A stretch of DNA of 20,660 bases from a virus. Below the pieces are notes generated by a model. That model saw nothing but the letters and a program-made list of their open reading frames with translations. It was not told the origin of the DNA and made no database searches. Positions 3,316 through 15,628 of the stretch are shown one piece after another (position 1 is the stretch's first letter; each line of letters starts with the position of its first letter). Where the stretch lies: positions 1-20,660 of IMG/VR virus record IMGVR_UViG_3300031576_001278; one strand, written 5' to 3'. The position numbers were made by a program, and so were the translations under genes.

Positions 3316-6300
3316 TCAGTACAGGGCGATGCCGTTGCCGCCATTCCAGAGCAGCGCGCGCATCGCTTCAGTAAGCGTCGCCTTGCCGAAGCCAAGCTCG
3401 TCGATCATCCCATCCCAATGATTCAGGGCGTTGACCGCGCCGATCGCGAAGTCCTGCGTAGTGTCGGTCGGTGGCCCCGTGGTAGGCGCAGACTCCACAG
3501 TCCCGTTGTTGACCTGGAGATTCACCTGGTTCGCGGTCGGATCGTGCCACCCCACCAAGAAGTGCCAGGCGCCGGCCGTCAAGTTCACCGACCCTACGAT
3601 GCCGAGCGAGGCGCCGGCCGCGTCGTAGACCTCGTAGCGACAGCGTCCCGAAGCGTCGTCCGTATACAGGGACCACTCCCGGCGCTTCCCAGCGATGATC
3701 TGGCTGCCGGCGACGAAGGCCTCGGGCTTCACCCAGCAGAAACAAAAATGGTGGATGTCGCCGGTGGATAGGTCGGCATTATCGGCAACCGACAGATATT
3801 GCGAGCTTGATCTTTCGAAGTCGTTGCCCATCCCGACCTGGCCGGCTGAGGCAACCGGGGCATTCGTCGGAGCGAGATGGCTCTGCTTGGCCCGGTCGTA
3901 GCGAATCCCCGCATCCTTTTCATCGAGCGGCCAGTACCCACTGAGGAGTGCCCTGACGTCTTGGGCGAGAGCAGGAGACAAGAAGCTGCCAAAGCCCAGG
4001 CGTGTCGAGGAATCGAGTTCGCCGAACCCAGCGGTCCCAAGAATCCAGAATGTCTCGGTGTCTGCCGGGATCAGTCGCCAGGTACAGCGGATGCTCCCGG
4101 CGGTGCGCATGTCAAACGCGATCTCGTTGATGTAGAAGCCGGCCGGCTCGACGAGCGCACTGACGCCCGTCACGCTTTCCGAGAACCCAACGCGGTCCGA
4201 GATTTCACGCGCAAGGGCTTGCGTCATGAGCGTATCCGACTCATTCGCCAGGAAAGTCACGGCTTCGACCTTCGTCGCCGGAAGCTTGCTGCGGTTCAGG
4301 ATGTAGTGGGCGATATCGAGGCCGACCTCGAGGCTGTTCTGGTAAGGCATGTCGTAGGCAACGACCGCCTCGCCGTAGATTCTCTTCCGGATCGTATCGT
4401 CGCTCGCTTCGAGGATCATTGGCTCGAACGAGTAGACACCCTTGCCCCTGAGCTGAAGCTTGGTCAACCAGCCATCGAAGACGGTCCTGTTCGTGCCAGC
4501 CGTACCGCTGTTGAGCACCTCGACCGCGGCGGTGTTGGAACCGTAATCGGCCGTCACCGCGAGCTGCGCCGTCCTATCCTCCCCAGTTCCGTCGCGGTTC
4601 TCGAAGAAAAGGTAGTCGGTCGTCGGCTCTGGCACGACGAGCTCCGTGCCTCCCACGCGGATCGCTGGCTGCGAAGGATCACGGTACGGGCAGATAAACA
4701 CAGGCGGCATCGTGAAGCGTGGGATGAACTGAGGCGAGCCTAGGCTGAATAGCACCGTCGTTGCCGACGGATCGATCCTGCGAGGGCGTACCTGTACCTT
4801 GACGCGATTGGCCATGTCGTCGCGAGTTCGGCGTACCTGTACGGCCAGGCTCTCCGCATCCGTCACGTCGATCGAGTTCGTGGTCTTCAGGCCGCGCGAG
4901 CGTCGGCCCTCGAACGTCAGGGTCTCGCCCTGCGTGGTGTTCCCCTTGACGAAGACCGACGCAAACTCCGAGGCCGCGAGCTTCTGGAATTCGCTCAGCA
5001 GCGTGGTCGATTCGTCGAAGGCGTTATCGAAGGCCGCTGCGAAGCGGTCCGTATCCGTATCGATCGACGTTGCGGCCGGCTGAGAATCGATTGCGGCGAG
5101 CAGGAGCGAGAAGAGCTGGTCGGCCCGCTGCTCAATCTGCACCGTAAGGCCACGCGGCTTCGTTCGGGCGGCCTCATCCATCCAGTCTACGCACCGAATC
5201 GCGACGATCCGACGTTGCTTCCCCGGCACCACGGCGATGTCGGTGACCTTGCCACGCCACTTGTAGTAGGTCACGCCACCATAGACGATCGCGACGCGAA
5301 CCTTGACCCCCACCTCGAACCCAGCCCGGCACTTGGGATTGTCGGGAGAATAATAACCGGGGTTGCCGGCGGAATCGTAGTTGATCAGTGACAATTCCAG
5401 CGTCCCGGCCTCTGCCACCCTGTCGAGGTCTCCGGTCCCAGCGATGCCATAGCGAAACTGGATCTGGTCCTCGCCCGACACGTCGACAACGACAGAGGTC
5501 CATTCGTCGGGCGGGATCGTGATCTCGCGGCTTACCGGCGCGGAATCTTGGCCACCTGACACCGCGAAGTCCTCTGTCACCAGCAGGCCATACTTGAGCG
5601 CGAGGTAGTACCCTACGCGTCGTCTGTCGGCCTGCGATAGCCATGAGCTGTAAACGATGATCTCGGCGATGCAGCCGTCGAAGGCGTTCCCGACCGAGCC
5701 CGCGCCAACTTGCAGCGTCCCCGTGAGAAGCGTCGTCGTGCCAGACACAATTGAGGCTATCTGCGAATCATCGAAGACGTTCTCGCCGATGTAGAGGTTC
5801 GTTGCGTCGTGCCCCCACATCGCGATGCGCGGCTGCCCGGGGATCGTAGGATCGTAGGCTCGGTCGGCGCCGCCGCTGTCCGTGTTCAGGACGGAGATCC
5901 GCCGCACGGGAGTCGTGTCGAAGTTGTAGAACACGCCAACGATCCCGTTGGTGTCTACGAAGAGATAGCGTTCCGTGCTCGTCTGCGTCGGGTCCTGGAG
6001 GAAAACGACGAAGATCGTACCTACCCCGTTCGCACCGAGGACCTGGGCCAGCGTGGCGCTCGAATCCAGGCGGTCATTGCTGCCGTCGAACAGCACGCAC
6101 GGCCGGCGCACCGGCCATTTCGCGACGACCAACTCCTTATCGGCGATGAACACGGGACGCTGAGAAGCCGTGCCCTGCGTAAGGTCGCGGCCGTTGCCGG
6201 AGGAATCCGCCCAGGTCGTGACCGGGGTGCCGTCCGCCAGGGTGATCGATCCCGCGTGCCACCAGGCCGTGGGCGAGAGGATCGACGGAAGGATAGGGAG

Positions 6301-6339
6301 GACCATCTGCACGTCGACGCTGGTCGGAACGACCCCCAT
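3316..6339 (-). CDS. Large tail-tip hub-like protein with LamG-like domains at both ends
   Basis: 1007 aa, starting at the ATG that overlaps the tape measure stop (TGATG). Residues about 22-255 look like a concanavalin A/LamG fold: WADSSGNGRDLTQ, LFDGSNDRLD, a FDGCIAEIIVYS strand and an RVGYYLALKYGL helix, as in glycan-binding LamG_3 domains. Residues about 260-790 form a long beta-rich body; YKWRGKVTDI and IRCVDWMD resemble siphovirus baseplate hub (Tal/gp27-like) proteins. Residues about 800-1000 are a second LamG-like domain (GYWPLDEKDA, DFERSSSQYLSV, WHFLVGWHD, DGMIDELGFG). No separate Dit-like or lambda L/K/I genes are seen, so this protein probably serves as most of the tail tip. The two lectin-like ends may bind host-surface glycans. 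The hub assignment is inferred mainly from position and size. Confidence 0.65.
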   Translation of the reverse strand: MGVVPTSVDVQMVLPILPSILSPTAWWHAGSITLADGTPVTTWADSSGNGRDLTQGTASQRPVFIADKELVVAKWPVRRPCVLFDGSNDRLDSSATLAQVLGANGVGTIFVVFLQDPTQTSTERYLFVDTNGIVGVFYNFDTTPVRRISVLNTDSGGADRAYDPTIPGQPRIAMWGHDATNLYIGENVFDDSQIASIVSGTTTLLTGTLQVGAGSVGNAFDGCIAEIIVYSSWLSQADRRRVGYYLALKYGLLVTEDFAVSGGQDSAPVSREITIPPDEWTSVVVDVSGEDQIQFRYGIAGTGDLDRVAEAGTLELSLINYDSAGNPGYYSPDNPKCRAGFEVGVKVRVAIVYGGVTYYKWRGKVTDIAVVPGKQRRIVAIRCVDWMDEAARTKPRGLTVQIEQRADQLFSLLLAAIDSQPAATSIDTDTDRFAAAFDNAFDESTTLLSEFQKLAASEFASVFVKGNTTQGETLTFEGRRSRGLKTTNSIDVTDAESLAVQVRRTRDDMANRVKVQVRPRRIDPSATTVLFSLGSPQFIPRFTMPPVFICPYRDPSQPAIRVGGTELVVPEPTTDYLFFENRDGTGEDRTAQLAVTADYGSNTAAVEVLNSGTAGTNRTVFDGWLTKLQLRGKGVYSFEPMILEASDDTIRKRIYGEAVVAYDMPYQNSLEVGLDIAHYILNRSKLPATKVEAVTFLANESDTLMTQALAREISDRVGFSESVTGVSALVEPAGFYINEIAFDMRTAGSIRCTWRLIPADTETFWILGTAGFGELDSSTRLGFGSFLSPALAQDVRALLSGYWPLDEKDAGIRYDRAKQSHLAPTNAPVASAGQVGMGNDFERSSSQYLSVADNADLSTGDIHHFCFCWVKPEAFVAGSQIIAGKRREWSLYTDDASGRCRYEVYDAAGASLGIVGSVNLTAGAWHFLVGWHDPTANQVNLQVNNGTVESAPTTGPPTDTTQDFAIGAVNALNHWDGMIDELGFGKATLTEAMRALLWNGGNGIALY

Positions 6340-9149
6340 CAGTTCACCGCCAGCAAGACTCCATCACGAACAGCGCGAGCGATCATGGCGGTCTGGCGAT
6401 CGAGCGCGGCCTCGAAGCGTCGCTGATCGAAACCGCCAGCGACGGAGCTTCCTGCGGGCCCCCTCTCTCGCACGACGGCTTCTCGGCCGTGGAGCATGGC
6501 AAGCGTGCCAGGGCCGAAGTCCCGGAAGCCACCCGAACCGTGCTGGAACTCCGGGATGTGGGGCCCGGGGATGCCAGGCGAGCCAGTGCTCACCGGGATG
6601 TGGATGCCAGCGCTTGCTATCCCCTGCGTCCGGAGGAGGGCCTCCACCAGGCGGTTGATCGCCTCGATCGCGCGACCCAGCCCCTCCTCGAGGGTCTCGG
6701 CGAACGTCAGGCCCGCGTCCTCGACGGAGCTGAACGCCTCCCCGTTCTCGTCGAGCAGCAGCCCCATCTCGATCATGCGCTCGATCTGCGGCCGCATCGC
6801 CTCGGGGATGGAAGCACCGGCGGCGAGCGCTTGGTCCACGTACTCCTGCATCGCCGGGCCCATCGCCGTGATAACCGCACCGTGCTCGGCCCCGGCTGCG
6901 GTCAGGAGCCGGTAGTCCCTGAGGAGCTGGGCGGCTTGCTGATTCAACTCCTGCTGCGCCCACTTCGGACCCATCTGCTCGATCGTCAGCCCGTAGCGGT
7001 CCATGGCCTCCTGGACGGCGGCGATCGCCTCATCGTGCAGCGCCAGCGCGTCCTCGATCTCCTTGATCGCCTTCTTGGCGGCATCTGGATTGCGGGCCGC
7101 GAACAGCGCATCGAGGGACAAGCCGGCCTCCCGAGCCGCGAACTCCAGCTCGGCCAGACCGCCGGCAGACTGGATGAACTCCTTTCGCAGCTTTTCGGCC
7201 TCCTTCGCTAGGTTGGGGCCGAAGAGGTTTTTCAGCGCCCGGCCGAGCCCGACGACACCGCCGATGATGGCGCCAATGATGTTGCCCTTGGTGAGTTGCT
7301 CGAACACACCGCGCGCCGTGTCCCCAAGCTCGCGCATGAACGTGACCGCCCTGCCGAGGGCCGACTCCGCCGAAACGCCGAGGATCTCGAATATCTCCTC
7401 GATGCCGGCGAGGGTGTCGCCGAAGAACCCGGCGACATCGGCAAGCGCTGACATCTTCCCGGCATGCTTTTCCGCGGCGCGCGCTGATTCCTCCTGCTGG
7501 TGCTGAAAGGCCGCGCCCTCCGCGAGGGCCTGCTCCTGCATCTCCTGGTACTCCGCTGCAGCCAGCGTCGCGCCGCTCAGGCTCGTGGCCAGATTGTCGT
7601 ACGACTCGATCGACGTGGGCCTCGGGGCGTTCGCCAGGACCTGGAGCGCGCCGGCGAGCCCGGTGGCGACTACCCCGAGCTCATCCGCCTGCTCGGCGAG
7701 GGCGCGCGCTCGGTCAAGGATGGCCGCGTTCAGTTCCTGGCCCGCGATAGCGTCGTTGAACTCCCTGAGGTCCGCCAGGAGATTGGCGCCGGTCAGCTCG
7801 GCGCGCAGCGCCCTGACGCCCTTCGCGTACTCCTCGCTGGCCTTAGCCGCCTCCGCCTCCGCGATGCTGAACGACTTGACCGAACCGAACGCCTTCTTGA
7901 GCGCGGCGTCGATGTCGGCCGTTACCTTGGCCCCCTTCTCCGTGGCCACGTTGGCGGTCTGCTGCACCGCGTTGAACGCGGTGAGGTTGGCGCGATAGGC
8001 CTTCACCGCTTCGTCGCCGCCCTGGATGAAAGCGAAAAGCATGCCCAGTTTGTCGGTGAGCGATACGGTACCGCCCTCGAACAGCTTCATCTCGCCGATC
8101 TTCTTCCCGATTTCCCAAGAGGCCCAGGCCACCGCGACGACTGCCAGGATGGAGGCAAGCAATCCGAGGTGGCCCATGATGAGCGGAAGTAGGGCACGCA
8201 CGGCGTTGAAGGCGGCCATCGCCGACCCGATAGAGGACGTCAGCATGCCGAAGACAACGAGCAGCGGCCCGATCGCGGCGGCCAGGCCCGCGACCACCAC
8301 CACCGCCATCTTCACGGGCGGAGACAGTTCCGCAAACCACCTCACCGCTGCCTGGATGTGCGGGAGCGCCGCCTGCACCGCGTTCAGCATCATCCCGGCC
8401 AGCGGAAGGAGGGCGGTGCCCAAATCGCGCACGGCGAAACCGACCTCGTCCTTGATCGTGGACCAGCGACCCAAGAGGGTCCTGGACTGCTGCTCCATCA
8501 TTCCGCCAAACTGCGCGTTCATGCCCGCGAGGATGCCCGGGATAGCGGCGGACGCCGAGATCGCCCCGCTCTCCGCGAGCTTCATGGCCGTGGGGATGTC
8601 TGTCCCGATCGCATCGGCCAGGAACCTCCAGGCGGGAATCCCAGACTCGGCCAACTGGTTCATTTCCTGGGCGCTGACCTTGCCCTTCGCCCCCATCTGT
8701 CCCAGGGCGAGCGTCACGCGGTTGATTGTCTCGCCGCCACCGCCGAGTCCGGCGACGGCATCGCCGATACTGGTCAGCATCGGGACGACCTGCTGCGCAT
8801 TGAACCCCATCGCAAGAAGGCGGTTTGATCCCTCGACGAGATCAGGGAATTCGAAGGGTGTGCGCGCAGCGAATTCCTCGAGCTCCCCCAAGAAGGCGGT
8901 CGCCTGCTCGGCGGAGCCCAGCATCGTCGTGAACGCGATCTTGGTCTGCTCGAAGTCCCCGGCCAGCTTCAGCGCGGCGATGGCGGCTCCCGCCATTGGG
9001 AGGGTGATCCCGGCCGTCATACCGACGCCAACCGAACGAATGTCGGCGCCGACGCTCTTGAGCGTGGCACTGGCCTTCTTCAGTTCCGGAGACATCTCGT
9101 CCCGCAGTCTCAGGATCGCCTGAAGAATTCCTACGTCAAGCGTTGCCAT
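6339..9149 (-). CDS. Tail tape measure protein
   Basis: 936 aa, directly after the tail chaperone frame, which it overlaps by 14 bp; its AAGGGG Shine-Dalgarno precedes the ATG at 9149. The N-terminal 230 residues match the TP901/tape_meas_nterm family (LKLAGDFEQTKIAFTTMLGS, NQLAESGIP). Two long hydrophobic stretches (about 281-303 and 319-345) and a shorter Gly/Ile one (622-636) are candidate membrane-inserting segments. Helical charged regions around 400-560 and 640-740 could form the extended rod. The C-terminus ends in a GPGTLAMLHGREAVV motif seen in other tape measures. The protein sets tail length; at the usual ~0.15 nm per helical residue it predicts a tail of roughly 140 nm. It is chaperoned by the upstream gpG/gpG-T-like products. 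Confidence 0.93.
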   Translation of the reverse strand: MATLDVGILQAILRLRDEMSPELKKASATLKSVGADIRSVGVGMTAGITLPMAGAAIAALKLAGDFEQTKIAFTTMLGSAEQATAFLGELEEFAARTPFEFPDLVEGSNRLLAMGFNAQQVVPMLTSIGDAVAGLGGGGETINRVTLALGQMGAKGKVSAQEMNQLAESGIPAWRFLADAIGTDIPTAMKLAESGAISASAAIPGILAGMNAQFGGMMEQQSRTLLGRWSTIKDEVGFAVRDLGTALLPLAGMMLNAVQAALPHIQAAVRWFAELSPPVKMAVVVVAGLAAAIGPLLVVFGMLTSSIGSAMAAFNAVRALLPLIMGHLGLLASILAVVAVAWASWEIGKKIGEMKLFEGGTVSLTDKLGMLFAFIQGGDEAVKAYRANLTAFNAVQQTANVATEKGAKVTADIDAALKKAFGSVKSFSIAEAEAAKASEEYAKGVRALRAELTGANLLADLREFNDAIAGQELNAAILDRARALAEQADELGVVATGLAGALQVLANAPRPTSIESYDNLATSLSGATLAAAEYQEMQEQALAEGAAFQHQQEESARAAEKHAGKMSALADVAGFFGDTLAGIEEIFEILGVSAESALGRAVTFMRELGDTARGVFEQLTKGNIIGAIIGGVVGLGRALKNLFGPNLAKEAEKLRKEFIQSAGGLAELEFAAREAGLSLDALFAARNPDAAKKAIKEIEDALALHDEAIAAVQEAMDRYGLTIEQMGPKWAQQELNQQAAQLLRDYRLLTAAGAEHGAVITAMGPAMQEYVDQALAAGASIPEAMRPQIERMIEMGLLLDENGEAFSSVEDAGLTFAETLEEGLGRAIEAINRLVEALLRTQGIASAGIHIPVSTGSPGIPGPHIPEFQHGSGGFRDFGPGTLAMLHGREAVVRERGPAGSSVAGGFDQRRFEAALDRQTAMIARAVRDGVLLAVN

Positions 9150-9474
9150 TGGGCCCCTTCTGCGCCTCCCGCCTTTCCTTGGCTAGCGCGAAGGCATTGA
9201 CTTCCGCCTCAGCCGCCAGGCGCGATGACCCTACGAGCGCGTTGCGCGCATTCTGGTCCCGCGCTTGGTCATAGGCCGTCTTGGCGTCGGCGTATTGGAG
9301 CATCTCGGCGCAGACCAGAGACAAGCGCTCGGGGTCTTCGTTCAGATCGCGGGCCACGACCGTCGGCAGCACCCCGAACGTCCTCGCCACCACCGCCAAC
9401 GCCCACATCCCTCGGACTCGTGGGTCCTCGACCGGCTCCTCTTCGTCTAGGAATCGATGGAGGGCCCTGAGTCG
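9136..9474 (-). CDS. Frameshift-dependent C-terminal part of the tail assembly chaperone (gpT-like)
   Basis: After the A AAA AAC heptamer the -1 frame is open without a stop from 9474 to 9136, giving 112 residues that would be fused to residues 1-134 of the upstream chaperone (246 aa in all). The internal ATG at 9406-9408 would give a free 90-aa protein, but no good Shine-Dalgarno precedes it, and the coding-like stretch before it (RFLDEEEPVEDPRVRG) supports a fusion. The sequence is helical, with Ala/Arg/Glu-rich segments and a YADAKTAYDQARDQNARNAL stretch. In lambda the gpG-T product binds the tape measure through G and recruits tail-tube subunits through T; the same is inferred here from gene order. 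Confidence 0.8.
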   Translation of the reverse strand, partial: RLRALHRFLDEEEPVEDPRVRGMWALAVVARTFGVLPTVVARDLNEDPERLSLVCAEMLQYADAKTAYDQARDQNARNALVGSSRLAAEAEVNAFALAKERREAQKGPNGNA

Positions 9475-9480
9475 TTTTTT
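9422..9480 (-). promoter_or_regulatory. Programmed -1 ribosomal frameshift signal (A AAA AAC heptamer plus downstream stem)
   Basis: The heptamer is at 9480-9474 on the minus strand, in the X XXY YYZ phase of the upstream gene (CGA AAA AAC). Six bases further on, GGGCCCTC (9467-9460) can pair with GAGGACCC (9429-9422), seven of eight pairs, with a 30-nt loop that could hold further structure. The geometry is right for -1 frameshifting; the stem itself is only inferred. Confidence 0.8.
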
Positions 9481-9875
9481 CGGGCGGTCTCCGCGATGGC
9501 GGCCGGCGGGTCGGAGAGGTCGACGATCTCACCGTAAATCTGCTCCGCGGCCCATTCCTCCAAGTCATCGACGGCATCGAGGAAGCCCCGCGCGCCGGGG
9601 GCATCGAACCCGGGGAGGCTCATGATCCCCTCGCGAAGCACGATTCGGCGATCGTATTTCCTGGTCTCCCGCCTCTCGGTCACATGGGCGGCCTTGGTCT
9701 CGGGCAGATCGTCCCGGAATGCCCTGAGGATCTCTGGGCCCATCCCTCTGGTCATTGCCGCGACGGAGAGCTGCCTCACCTCCAAGGCCTTCTCGAGCTG
9801 AGCCGCAGAGAGCTTCCGAATGCGAACCGGGTCGCTTCCGACCGTGATCTCCTTGGTGATCTTCGACGCGAACAT
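9447..9875 (-). CDS. Tail assembly chaperone, gpG-like
   Basis: 142 aa, close to lambda gpG in length, lying between the tail-tube genes and the tape measure. The ATG at 9873-9875 has a GGAGG Shine-Dalgarno. The first strands (SKITKEITVGSDPVRIRKLS) precede helical segments (QLEKALEVRQLS, FLDAVDDLEEWAAEQIYGEI), a layout usual for this chaperone group. Codons 132-134 read CGA AAA AAC, which sets the slippery heptamer exactly in phase; after it only eight residues follow before TAG. The product should coat the tape measure during tail assembly and be absent from the virion. A longer in-frame start at 10022 crosses the tail-tube gene and has no support. Confidence 0.85.
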   Translation of the reverse strand: MFASKITKEITVGSDPVRIRKLSAAQLEKALEVRQLSVAAMTRGMGPEILRAFRDDLPETKAAHVTERRETRKYDRRIVLREGIMSLPGFDAPGARGFLDAVDDLEEWAAEQIYGEIVDLSDPPAAIAETARKNDSGPSIDS

Positions 9876-9954: not shown

Positions 9955-10377
9955 CTAGACTTCCGTGACGGCCCCGGTCGGCTGCAGCTCCACTTCGTAG
10001 TCCTGGATCTTGTTCCTCTCACCGAGCCGGTCGTAGCGCATGACGAAGGTCTCCACGCTCGTCGTCTTCGTGCCGCCCCAGGTGAACTTCAGGGTCCTGG
10101 TGGTCGAGGCCGGCGTCTCCGGTGTCGTGCGGATGAACAGCGCGTCCGGCCCGGTCGCCGCCGTGTCGTCGAACTTGCCGCCGAGCACCACGGGCTTCAT
10201 CCGGCCGACGCCGATCGGCAGGTGCTCTTCCCACTGGTCGCCGAAGCTGCGCACCTCTTCGAGGATCTGCTCGATGGACACCCCGTTCATCGTGAGCACG
10301 TGCTGCGTGATGCTCACGGGCGTGCCGCCGGAGTTGTCGTAGTCGATGGCCAGACTGGCCGGGCCATATTTCGCCAT
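9955..10377 (-). CDS. Tail-tube (major tail) protein paralogue, short form
   Basis: 140 aa, starting MAKYGPASLAIDYDN. It shares MAKYGP, a WEEHLPIGV motif and a G-x-(F/Y)-DD motif, in the same order, with the 245-aa protein at 10546-11283, so the two are paralogues. The beta-strand pattern (RTLKFTWGGTKTTSVETFVM, QDYEVELQP) fits a tail-tube fold. It lies immediately upstream of the gpG-like chaperone, the usual place for the major tail protein. One of the two paralogues is presumably the main tube subunit, the other a minor or first-ring/tip-proximal subunit; which is which cannot be read from sequence. A GGGAGG Shine-Dalgarno lies about a dozen bases before the ATG. Confidence 0.65.
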   Translation of the reverse strand: MAKYGPASLAIDYDNSGGTPVSITQHVLTMNGVSIEQILEEVRSFGDQWEEHLPIGVGRMKPVVLGGKFDDTAATGPDALFIRTTPETPASTTRTLKFTWGGTKTTSVETFVMRYDRLGERNKIQDYEVELQPTGAVTEV

Positions 10378-10545: not shown

Positions 10546-11283
10546 TCAGCCCCGATTGACGACCACGTAGGGGACGATGCTCTGACCGCTACCTGCGCCA
10601 TTGAACAACCAAGACATCGCCAAATGTCGGTTCACTGTTCCGCTGACCGTCGCCCGTTGTGCGCCGATTGCTGTCACGGCCGAGAACGTGATGAGGTCGG
10701 CGTAGGTGATGTCGTCGGTGCTGTGTCGCACCTTCACCGTGACGCTGGTGAAGCCGCCGAGCGTCAGGGCCGGCACGTGCAAGTCCGCGGTCGCCCCGTT
10801 GGCGCTGGAGGCGCCGTTGTCCACCGAGGGGCCCTCGGTGTTGCCGGAGGTGGCGGTCTCGGCGTTCAGCCCGTGGATGATCTTGCCGCGCTTGTAGTCG
10901 CCGGTGACCGTGTATTTGGCGTCCGCCTTGGTCAGGCCCTCCTTTTGCGCGATACGATCCCAGACGGCGGCAAACGCGCCATCGAGCAGCATGGCCTCGG
11001 CGCCGGTGATGCTGCTTGATAGGCCGAAGCTCACCAGTTGTCTCGTGGCGCCCTGGCCCTGTAGAGCCTCCACGATGCCAGCTACTGCATCGTCGTAGAA
11101 CCCGCCTCCGGCTTCGAGGCCCACGCTCGCGACGCCGATCGGCAGGTGCTCTTCCCAGGTCTTGCTCAGGCCATTCGTCTGGTTCAGCATGTGCCGGACC
11201 GATTCCTTGAGCGTGAACGTGTCGCTCGAGATGTTCTTCCCGCCCACGAGAAGGAATGCGCTCGATGGCCCGTACTTCGCCAT
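10546..11283 (-). CDS. Tail-tube (major tail) protein paralogue, long form
   Basis: 245 aa; its ATG overlaps the stop of the preceding gene (TGATG). The N-terminal half carries MAKYGPSS, a TWEEHLPIGV motif and GGFYDDAV, shared with the 140-aa paralogue downstream. Residues about 155-245 form an additional domain of alternating strands (TSVTVKVRHSTDDITYADLI, QRATVSGTVNRHLAMSWLFN, GSGQSIVPYVVVN). Together they resemble phage tail-tube proteins that carry an extra surface domain. The position after the tail-terminator-like gene and before the chaperone matches lambda gpV. I favour this as the main tail-tube subunit because of its fuller domain set, but that is inference. Confidence 0.65.
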   Translation of the reverse strand: MAKYGPSSAFLLVGGKNISSDTFTLKESVRHMLNQTNGLSKTWEEHLPIGVASVGLEAGGGFYDDAVAGIVEALQGQGATRQLVSFGLSSSITGAEAMLLDGAFAAVWDRIAQKEGLTKADAKYTVTGDYKRGKIIHGLNAETATSGNTEGPSVDNGASSANGATADLHVPALTLGGFTSVTVKVRHSTDDITYADLITFSAVTAIGAQRATVSGTVNRHLAMSWLFNGAGSGQSIVPYVVVNRG

Positions 11284-11677: not shown

Positions 11678-12094
11678 TTAGACCGCCACGGAAAGGTTTT
11701 TTTCCAGCAGAAAGTTGCAGGCGATGACGACCCGCTCCGCATCATCCCGGGCGAGCAAGAAGGGCGCCTGCTGCGGATGGATCCACCGATAGAACGTGCC
11801 GCTCAAGAGCCTTACCTCGACTGCCGCCAGCGCCCTGTACGCCGTTTCCGCCTTCGCCCTGGGGCCAGCGTAATCGTGCGGGGCACCACGGAAGACGATT
11901 TGCACAGCGGGCGTCTCAAACTGGATGCCGGGGGCCCCGAATCCGAGGTCGGGAGGCACGCCGCCGTACTCGTAGACCGCGCCGCACGCATCGGGGTCGT
12001 TCGGCAGCTTGCCGACGATGAGGTCGATCCCGACAACGCCGAGGCTCTGGGGGGAAGCGGCCAGGAACGCGGCAATCTCCTTCAGGGTGCTCAT
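11678..12094 (-). CDS. Tail terminator / minor capsid-like neck protein
   Basis: 138 aa, overlapping the preceding gp10-like gene by ATGA. The pattern resembles the phage 'minor capsid protein'/tail-terminator group (PF12691-like): a starting helix (TLKEIAAFLAAS), a strand set around residues 20-75 including PAVQIVFRGAPHDY, then helix AETAYRALAAV and final strands IHPQQAPFLLARDD and RVVIACNFLLEKN. Gene order (gp10-like, this, tail tube) is that of lambda Z-U-V, so gpU-like capping of the tail tube is the likely role. An A AAA AAC heptamer lies near its 3' end (11702-11696). Confidence 0.65.
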   Translation of the reverse strand: MSTLKEIAAFLAASPQSLGVVGIDLIVGKLPNDPDACGAVYEYGGVPPDLGFGAPGIQFETPAVQIVFRGAPHDYAGPRAKAETAYRALAAVEVRLLSGTFYRWIHPQQAPFLLARDDAERVVIACNFLLEKNLSVAV

Positions 12095-13259: not shown

Positions 13260-15314
13260 TTACGCGCCGGGGTTCTTCCAGAGACCTCTGAAGTCGATCA
13301 CCTTCGCCGCGAAGTCCTCGCGGCACTTCACCTCGAGGCCGTCGATCTCGAATCCGACGCGGCTCTCCACCATCGGGCCTTCCTCGCCCTCCAGGTAGGC
13401 GTACTCGATGATATCGATCTGGTCGGGCGTGGCGGCCAGATACCACGACACGAGGCTGCCGGTGTCGAGCCGCGGCTCCGCGATGACCTGGAGCCTTCCC
13501 GCGAACGGGTTCACCGAGCTGGACGCGCTGGCCAGCAGGTTGGTGCTCACGAACTGGTCGGCGATCGTTTCCTTCGCGGCCGGGACGATCAAGTAGAGCG
13601 GGAAGATGTTGAGGAGCGTCACGAGGTCGACGCCCTTCTGGACACGCATGCCCGCCCGGCCGGCGCCGATCGCCGCCACCGAGATGGCGTCGCTCGTGGC
13701 CGACAGGTTGTTGTGGCCCGTGGCGAAAAGCGCCACCCCGTCACCCATCAGCGGGTTGGTCGTGATCTGCTGCCAGACGAGGTCGGACTCCAGGTTCCGG
13801 GCGGCGCGGCCGAACAGGGTCGGCACCCGAGAGAAGGCGTCCGTGTCGTCGTTGACCAGGGCCTTGCGCGTGATGGCGAACCGGCGACCGTAGGTGGCGA
13901 GCTGGAACTGCTCCTTCCCCTCGCCGATGGTCCCGAAGGTGAACTCTCCGTGCTCGCCGACTTCGAGGAGTGCCGGCGCCTCGCCGATCTGAAGCCGCTT
14001 GACCGGCTTGAAGTCCGGCAAGGTGGTGCGGCGGGAGATAGGCCCCCAGGTCTGGGGCGCTTCCTCGTAGGCGCGTCGGAGCGTCTTGTTGGCGACGTCG
14101 GCCAGCAAGTTCGCGAAGTCCGAGGTCGTGTGCATCCCGGCCGTCCGTGTCTCGAGACCGAGGGCGAGCCCGGCGATCTTCATCTTGCCCAGGGCGGTGG
14201 TACGGACACCGACCTGGTTCAGGTACGCCTCGGCGATCCGCAGCATGGTCATGCCGCGGTACTGGCGCCCCACGTCCGCCAGCTCGAATCCCTTGGGGTC
14301 GTTCCCGGTCTTGGGTCGCACCCGGTGGAGGAGGGCGTTCTCGATGCCCTCGCGGACGTGGATGAACGGATCGTCGCCGGTGACGCGAACGTCGGAGCCA
14401 CGCGAACTGCCACGGGGCACGTCGACGTCGCGCGCCGCCAGCTCCTTGAACACGCGGCTCTGGGCCTCGACCAACGACACCTTGTCCTGGATCAGCCTGT
14501 CGGCGGTCGCCTGGGGGAGGCGAGCGGCGCGGCAAGCCGCGAGGATGCCCTGGATGCGTGTCCGCTCGGCGTCCGCGCCCTCGTCCCGCTCGTTCGGCTC
14601 GGCCGGGGCGAGCGTCCGCCCAGCGGGCGGCGCCAGGGGGTCGGTCTCCACGATGGTCTCCGAGCGAGGATCGTCTTCCATTTTCGGCTCCTTCTTGGGC
14701 GGTTCTCCTGTGCGCGTCACGATCTCGCAGGAGTTGGTACCAGCGGGCTTCTCGCCCCGAACCTTGGCGCCGGCATCCGCCGGCATCGAGACCATTGAGA
14801 CCTCGAACGGCTCCCAATCGGTCGCCTTGCGCACCGGCAGCTTGTCCCCGTTGCCTGCGATCTCCTCGAACTTGTAGACCCGATAGCCAACGCTCACGCT
14901 CCGGATGATCCCGTCGCGCACGTCCTGCCACACGGGCTCGACCGCCTCGCGCTTCGAGAAGCGCACGGTCGCCCGGGCTTCCTTCTTGGTGAGGTTCACG
15001 CTACCCGGCACCACCGCGCCGAGCTGGTCGGCCACCGACCAGGCGCTGTGCGAGTCGAGGAGCGGACCACCCTCGTTCAGCCGGTCGATGCGAACCGACT
15101 CAGGGTCGAGGGAGAGGATCTCGAGATACCGCGTACCGCTCATCCAGTCGTAGCGCTGGACCGCGGCGCCGGTGCTAAACACCAGCTCCACGGTGCGGGC
15201 CTCGTCATTGAGGCTCTTGAGGGCTACGTCGGCGCGCAGCGAGAGCGGCGACATCTCCACGACGCGTGGGGCAACAGGGACGGGCTCTACGGCGCGGGTG
15301 CGCTTCGCAGCCAT
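13260..15314 (-). CDS. Fused prohead protease / major capsid protein
   Basis: 684 aa from the ATG at 15312-15314 (GGTGGAG just upstream); the ATG at 15326 is an alternative without a ribosome site. Residues about 25-195 are an HK97-type prohead serine protease: ARTVELVFSTG, catalytic-His candidate H89 in LLDSHSA, and Ser candidate S141 in IIRSVSVGY. Residues about 195-300 are a charged, Pro/Glu/Arg-rich linker with a helix, resembling a scaffolding or delta segment. Residues about 315-684 are the capsid domain (SDFANLLADVANKTLRRAYE, TYGRRFAITRKALVNDD, NLESDLVWQQITTNPLMGDG, ATGHNN). No stop interrupts the junction. Fused protease-capsid proteins are known in phages; maturation should cut within or near the linker. 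No separate scaffold or protease gene is present. Confidence 0.9.
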   Translation of the reverse strand: MAAKRTRAVEPVPVAPRVVEMSPLSLRADVALKSLNDEARTVELVFSTGAAVQRYDWMSGTRYLEILSLDPESVRIDRLNEGGPLLDSHSAWSVADQLGAVVPGSVNLTKKEARATVRFSKREAVEPVWQDVRDGIIRSVSVGYRVYKFEEIAGNGDKLPVRKATDWEPFEVSMVSMPADAGAKVRGEKPAGTNSCEIVTRTGEPPKKEPKMEDDPRSETIVETDPLAPPAGRTLAPAEPNERDEGADAERTRIQGILAACRAARLPQATADRLIQDKVSLVEAQSRVFKELAARDVDVPRGSSRGSDVRVTGDDPFIHVREGIENALLHRVRPKTGNDPKGFELADVGRQYRGMTMLRIAEAYLNQVGVRTTALGKMKIAGLALGLETRTAGMHTTSDFANLLADVANKTLRRAYEEAPQTWGPISRRTTLPDFKPVKRLQIGEAPALLEVGEHGEFTFGTIGEGKEQFQLATYGRRFAITRKALVNDDTDAFSRVPTLFGRAARNLESDLVWQQITTNPLMGDGVALFATGHNNLSATSDAISVAAIGAGRAGMRVQKGVDLVTLLNIFPLYLIVPAAKETIADQFVSTNLLASASSSVNPFAGRLQVIAEPRLDTGSLVSWYLAATPDQIDIIEYAYLEGEEGPMVESRVGFEIDGLEVKCREDFAAKVIDFRGLWKNPGA

Positions 15315-15351
15315 GATCTCCACCATGCGGCGGACTGATGGTCGGGCGTAA

Positions 15352-15368
15352 CCCGCTATTTTCGCGGG
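15352..15368. other. Short hairpin in the gap before the protease-capsid gene
   Basis: cccgc (15352-15356) and gcggg (15364-15368) form a 5-bp GC stem with a 7-nt A/T-rich loop, in the 68-80-bp gap between the winged-helix gene and the capsid gene. This is the largest gap within the capsid block. No T tract follows on the minus strand, so it is not a standard terminator; an mRNA processing or attenuation role is only a possibility. Confidence 0.3.
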
Positions 15369-15394
15369 GTGGTTCGATGTTGAGGGGCTTGGAG

Positions 15395-15628
15395 TTAGCC
15401 CGGCACGTGCGGGCAGCGAAGGCCGCTCGGATCGGGCGTGCGCAGCCACCCCTTGCGGTACAGCGCCTCGAGATGCTGGCTGATCGTCTTGGGGTGCACG
15501 CCCAGGCGGCGGGCTATGTAGTAGACGGACGGGGTCTCGCCGGTCGCCTCGTAGTACCGGGCGATCAGCATCAGCACGGCGCGCTGGCGCACGGCCAGGG
15601 GCGCTACGACATGGCCCCGTTCGGTCAT
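15395..15628 (-). CDS. Small winged-helix DNA-binding protein (LexA N-terminal-like)
   Basis: 77 aa. It closely follows the LexA DNA-binding domain layout: VRQRAVLMLIARYYEATGET (helix 1), PSVYYIARRLGVH (helix 2), PKTISQHLEALYRKGWL (recognition helix and wing start). There is no peptidase/dimerisation domain, so it cannot self-cleave like LexA. The start overlaps the preceding stop (TGATG) inside the structural operon, between portal and capsid. A DNA-binding regulator in this place could feed back on late transcription, or bind phage DNA during packaging; both are inference. MarR/ArsR-like winged helices are alternative families. Confidence 0.75.
   Translation of the reverse strand: MTERGHVVAPLAVRQRAVLMLIARYYEATGETPSVYYIARRLGVHPKTISQHLEALYRKGWLRTPDPSGLRCPHVPG

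Follow-up and report, generated by a model that had tools for sequence, protein, structure and literature searches.

Two tail proteins of phage lambda, G and the fusion G-T, are made at a ratio of about 30:1 by -1 frameshifting (PMC5009743, where the lambda frameshift is cited to Levin 1993 and to Xu, Hendrix and Duda 2004, 2013), and the same G/GT arrangement occurs widely among long-tailed phages, even where sequence similarity is low (PMC5009743). The heptamer A_AAA_AAC has been reported, as cited in that paper, as the g-t shift site of the Haloarcula virus HCTV-2, and both -1 and +1 sites have been reported for g-t pairs of haloviruses (PMC5009743). Frameshifting at A_AAA_AAC has been proven in one IS cluster (PMC5009743, PMC4066793); in E. 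coli, according to a systematic study, the most efficient motifs are those that let the A-site tRNA re-pair cognately (PMC4066793).

The stretch of DNA analysed here, called the window, is the IMG/VR virus record IMGVR_UViG_3300031576_001278, positions 1 to 20,660 (20,660 bases). Sequence comparison makes it very probable that the tail assembly chaperone locus in it, G/T of a long-tailed phage, is expressed with a programmed -1 ribosomal frameshift in the manner of lambda G/GT. The first-pass annotation had proposed such a frameshift between a G-like and a T-like frame, and the comparison with homologues described below supports it strongly: slip site and direction are kept, the T frame is constrained from the slip point onwards, no T start codon is conserved, and the pair adjoins the tape measure gene.

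As in lambda, the two frames lie directly before the tape measure gene, the slip would occur near the 3' end of G and in the -1 direction, and the products proposed are G and a low level of fusion. In contrast to lambda, the heptamer of the window is A AAA AAC, and its G and T proteins, compared with Pfam, PHROGs and NCBIfam, have no significant match to any named chaperone family. The G GGA AAA found in several relatives is one base away from G GGA AAG, the site given for lambda in the first-pass annotation. HCTV-2 shares with the window the A_AAA_AAC site in a tailed virus, but HCTV-2 is archaeal, and the comparison made here covers the shift site alone. The site had been presented as a fresh instance; as a kind of site it is not, A AAA AAC being already reported for the HCTV-2 g-t pair as cited in PMC5009743. 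Nor can it be called particularly slip-prone, as had been suggested, at least in E. coli (PMC5009743, PMC4066793), which may not match the host: there A AAA AAC is not especially slippery, because re-pairing from AAC to AAA is not cognate (PMC4066793). The A AAA AAG and A AAA AAC sites of E. coli dnaX and of IS elements are similar to that of the window in being A-rich tandem lysine slip sites and, in some cases, in having a Shine-Dalgarno (SD)-like 5' element, but they serve different genes and a different purpose, and at dnaX the site has AAG as its last codon and is stimulated by a stem-loop (PMC5009743, PMC4066793).

Gene order and reading frames in the window

On the minus strand the genes follow the order terminase, portal, protease-capsid, neck and terminator, two related tube proteins, G-like ORF, T and tape measure (Table 1). 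As in lambda-type loci, G and T thus lie between a tube gene and the tape measure gene; the latter is directly 3' of T and its start is overlapped by the T stop codon, TGA at 9138-9136. The tape measure protein is the expected partner of G and G-T. Relatives of the locus, described below, have tube genes upstream in the same order as the window, and a tape measure gene directly downstream wherever the contig reaches that far and a match was found. The two tube-like genes of the window resemble each other, and cross-matching tandem copies are seen in most relatives. Elsewhere in the window, a single minus-strand ORF at 13260-15449 carries both a prohead protease (Peptidase_S78) and a capsid domain, being a protease-capsid fusion, and the C-terminal half of the minus-strand ORF at 1-780 is a low-complexity Ala/Arg/Asp repeat (AARDAAGDAAR...); ORF calls in this last region are unreliable, because the repeats keep several reading frames open over a long distance.

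Table 1. Features of the G/T locus, with positions in the window unless an outgroup locus is named
Feature	Position	Strand	Remarks
Tube (major tail protein) candidates, in tandem	10546-11283 and 9955-10377	-	upstream of G
G-like tail assembly chaperone ORF, 0 frame	9450..9875	-	142 aa; ATG preceded by GGAGG
SD-like GGAG, possible 5' stimulator (weak)	9489..9492	-	ends 8 bases before heptamer
Slippery heptamer A AAA AAC	9474..9480	-	0-frame codons 132 (last base)-133-134, CGA AAA AAC
T-like -1 frame, C-terminal part of the predicted G-T fusion	9136..9474	-	112 codons after slip, and stop
T frame before first possible start (ATG at 9408)	9409..9474	-	encodes RLRALHRFLDEEEPVEDPRVRG; expected to be reached by frameshift
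Possible hairpin	9420..9467	-	begins 6 bases after heptamer; not conserved as structure
Tape measure protein gene	6339..9149	-	Pfam TMP_3, E 1.5e-28; PHROG tape measure, 1.2e-64
Outgroup junction, L007 (L008 identical)	3940-4010		TTC TTT C CGG, UUU C
Outgroup junction, L009	1918-1958		CAA AAA AAG, A7 run

Read from 9480, the -1 frame is AAA AAA CGA CTC AGG ... and stays free of stops for 112 codons, down to the TGA, which gives a fusion of 132+2+112 = 246 amino acids. The phase of the heptamer, at codons 132-134 of the 142-residue ORF, the number of additional open codons and the fusion length all coincide with those of the first-pass annotation.

The best reading of G is that of a tail assembly chaperone, which we infer from its position before the tape measure gene, the G/T architecture and a weak similarity of fold. 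Its AlphaFold model is of moderate quality (pLDDT 73). When this was searched with Foldseek in BFVD, many of the named matches were tail assembly chaperones, from phages of Rhodococcus, Bacillus, Gordonia and others, none with an E value below 0.001; the corresponding structure search in the PDB returned nothing. Three of the 13 G proteins of the family, the window's not among them, weakly match phrog_344, "tail assembly chaperone" (best E 0.0057); no other PHROG has matches to more than one member. The labels gpG-like and gpT-like, assigned at first pass, are therefore appropriate by function and position, and are not a claim of sequence homology to lambda.

Conservation of the slip site among uncultured relatives

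Searches of IMG/VR with the single G, T or tape measure proteins found no homologue. A search with the tube protein led to a first homologous contig carrying the same module (L002), and the T frame of this contig led to further loci. The resulting family contains 13 loci, counting the window; the 12 diverged relatives are uncultured viruses on separate IMG/VR contigs. No G/T homologues were found in GTDB species genomes, plasmids or cultured phages, the last giving chance-level matches only. G proteins from the 12 contigs are 27-42% identical to that of the window, and the eight T frames that were aligned, beginning at the codon after the slip, 44-53%. Members are well diverged from one another (median end branch 0.62), two of them, L015 and L022, being near-identical.

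In all 13 loci T occupies the -1 frame relative to G, at the same position. Near the 3' end of G, as in lambda-type loci, 12 of them carry a full in-phase heptamer of the form X XXY YYZ, Y being A, at the homologous place; from it the -1 frame is open into T, and it is the sole slippery heptamer of the overlap. Its sequence is A AAA AAC in four loci (the window, L010, L020 and L023), G GGA AAA in seven (L012, L013, L014, L015, L021, L022 and L024) and C CCA AAA in L002. The remaining locus, L011, has GAC AAA A, with no full heptamer but with the A_AAA tetramer kept. G ends in each locus 1-8 sense codons past the slippery A-site codon. The comparison of heptamer and overlap among homologues, proposed at first pass as a check, thus finds a slippery site at the same place throughout the family. 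Homologues that keep both frames without the heptamer, which had been indicated as evidence against a frameshift, were looked for: the sequence changes but the slipperiness stays, L011 being a partial exception.

Codon usage singles out the same site. The lysine codon at the slip is AAA in 13 of 13 loci, while elsewhere in these G and T genes lysine is encoded by AAA in 13 cases and by AAG in 190 out of 203, an AAA share of about 6%. With the amino acids fixed, codon choice yields a slippery heptamer with a probability of 0.013 for the window alone, and of 0.005-0.10 per sequence; the product over the 12 members with a full heptamer, 1.8e-18, is overstated, the members being related and L015 and L022 near-identical.

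These data bear on two other origins of the broken frame. Homopolymers attract errors and the window is a metagenomic contig, both of which speak for a sequencing or assembly error that removed or added an A and split one gene in two. The homologues in effect refute this reading: the same frame break occurs at the same place in 13 loci on separate contigs, with different slippery sequences, and in each of them G ends at a nearby stop. Alternatively, polymerase rather than ribosome might slip, adding a base to the mRNA. There are six A in a row in the window and seven in L023, and long A-runs do slip in some bacteria; however, the bacterial cases cited are runs of nine A or T (PMC5009743), and the seven relatives with G GGA AAA and the one with C CCA AAA have only four A, direction and place being unchanged. 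All sites of the family fit slippage of tandem codons, not of the polymerase, and transcriptional slippage is regarded as extremely unlikely.

A single heptamer occurrence would have proved little, and homologues were needed, because the window has a second in-phase copy. A AAA AAC occurs twice in the window, against 0.3 expected, both times in phase within a gene. The second copy (11702..11696, minus strand) lies in the tail terminator gene, seven codons before its stop; it is absent from all of the 12 relatives, which have other codons there. A frameshift at this place was rejected: the -1 frame ends after 24 codons, and the heptamer, which no relative keeps, is considered a chance copy.

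Expression of the T frame

T could in principle be an independent gene, with translation starting at the ATG of position 9408 through re-initiation or coupling, the heptamer being a chance A-run. The GAGGG found just upstream of this ATG is in favour of such a gene, as is the fact that A AAA AAC occurs once more in the window by chance. That copy, however, is absent from 12 of 12 relatives, whereas the slippery site of G/T is kept. Moreover, the ATG at 9408 is not conserved, nor is any other T start codon across the family, and the T frame of L012, open from just five codons ahead of the slip, contains no ATG, GTG or TTG up to codon 44.

T shows protein conservation (RLRxLHxLLDxEEP) from the first codon past the slip, ahead of any start codon that the family shares. 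Differences at the three codon positions of the T frame just after the slip are 0.20, 0.23 and 0.55. Over the first 14 codons, amino acid identity is 63% in the T frame, as compared to 34% and 38% in the other two, and stops number 0, as compared to 3 and 10; between slip and ATG, conservation at the protein level is confined to the T frame. T, as in lambda-type loci, is conserved as a protein from the slip point, with no independent conserved start. Most likely, T is made as an extension of G, because the constraint on the protein precedes any usable start and no start codon is conserved, and its expression as an independent gene appears very unlikely.

In the frameshift favoured here, most ribosomes would translate G and stop at 9450, while a minority, with tRNA-Lys and tRNA-Asn on AAA AAC, would slip back by one base onto AAA AAA and continue with CGA CTC ..., producing the 246-residue G-T fusion. 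By analogy with lambda, the tape measure protein would be coated by many G and few G-T molecules, and the T part would recruit the tube protein, the tail thereby reaching its correct length, after which G and G-T would leave. Slippage itself, its efficiency and the chaperone role are what we infer; the observations behind them are a -1 frame free of stops, a slippery site and a frame that relatives keep, the coding constraint on T and the gene order.

Local signals and outgroup junctions

A possible stem starting six bases downstream of the heptamer had been noted at first pass. Such a stem can indeed be drawn, but its stability is ordinary: folding of 9472-9400 gives -26.1 kcal/mol, against -25.1 for dinucleotide shuffles (z = -0.30). 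RNAalifold, run on the 13 sequences for a conserved 3' structure, returned no pairs, and hence no conserved stem-loop. Individually strong hairpins are seen just after the slip in L010, above all, and in L020, L023 and L011; they have no common structure, and are possibly lineage-specific stimulators. Which sequences show a strong stem depends on the stretch chosen for folding. Loci with A AAA AAC had seemed to have the stronger local stems, but this link was dropped, as it failed when length and offset of the folded stretch were varied. Upstream, 8 of the 13 loci have a GGAG that ends 5 or 8 bases ahead of the heptamer (scan range 4-9 bases), against a mean of 4.4 in synonymous shuffles (P = 0.018); a looser SD-like motif is not enriched upstream of the heptamer in the 13 loci (P = 0.31). 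GGAG may be a 5' element like that of dnaX, or may simply reflect conserved glutamate codons.

More distant G/T homologues were found in L007 and L008, which are identical contigs, and in L009; a scan for close relatives of the latter found only L009 itself. For T these outgroups use the +1 (or -2) frame, and despite the other frame its first residues, LHRFLDGE, are kept. The chances seem even that the direction of recoding changed within one homologous G/T family, being -1 in the branch of the window and +1/-2 in L007/L008 and L009.

The locus adds a new case to a phage mechanism known for long, with a heptamer neither new for G/T nor, as far as is known, especially slippery in bacteria. For annotation this means merging T-like ORFs of this kind with G; calling them as genes in their own right would give them a spurious start. 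The finding extends the G/GT frameshift to a family of uncultured phages. Their chaperone proteins, as we read them, fall outside Pfam, PHROGs and NCBIfam, and the 13 aligned natural sites, with A AAA AAC, G GGA AAA and C CCA AAA among them, provide material on the exchange of slippery sites under a kept function. If the direction of recoding did change, the family would offer a single lineage in which gains and losses of frameshift direction can be traced.
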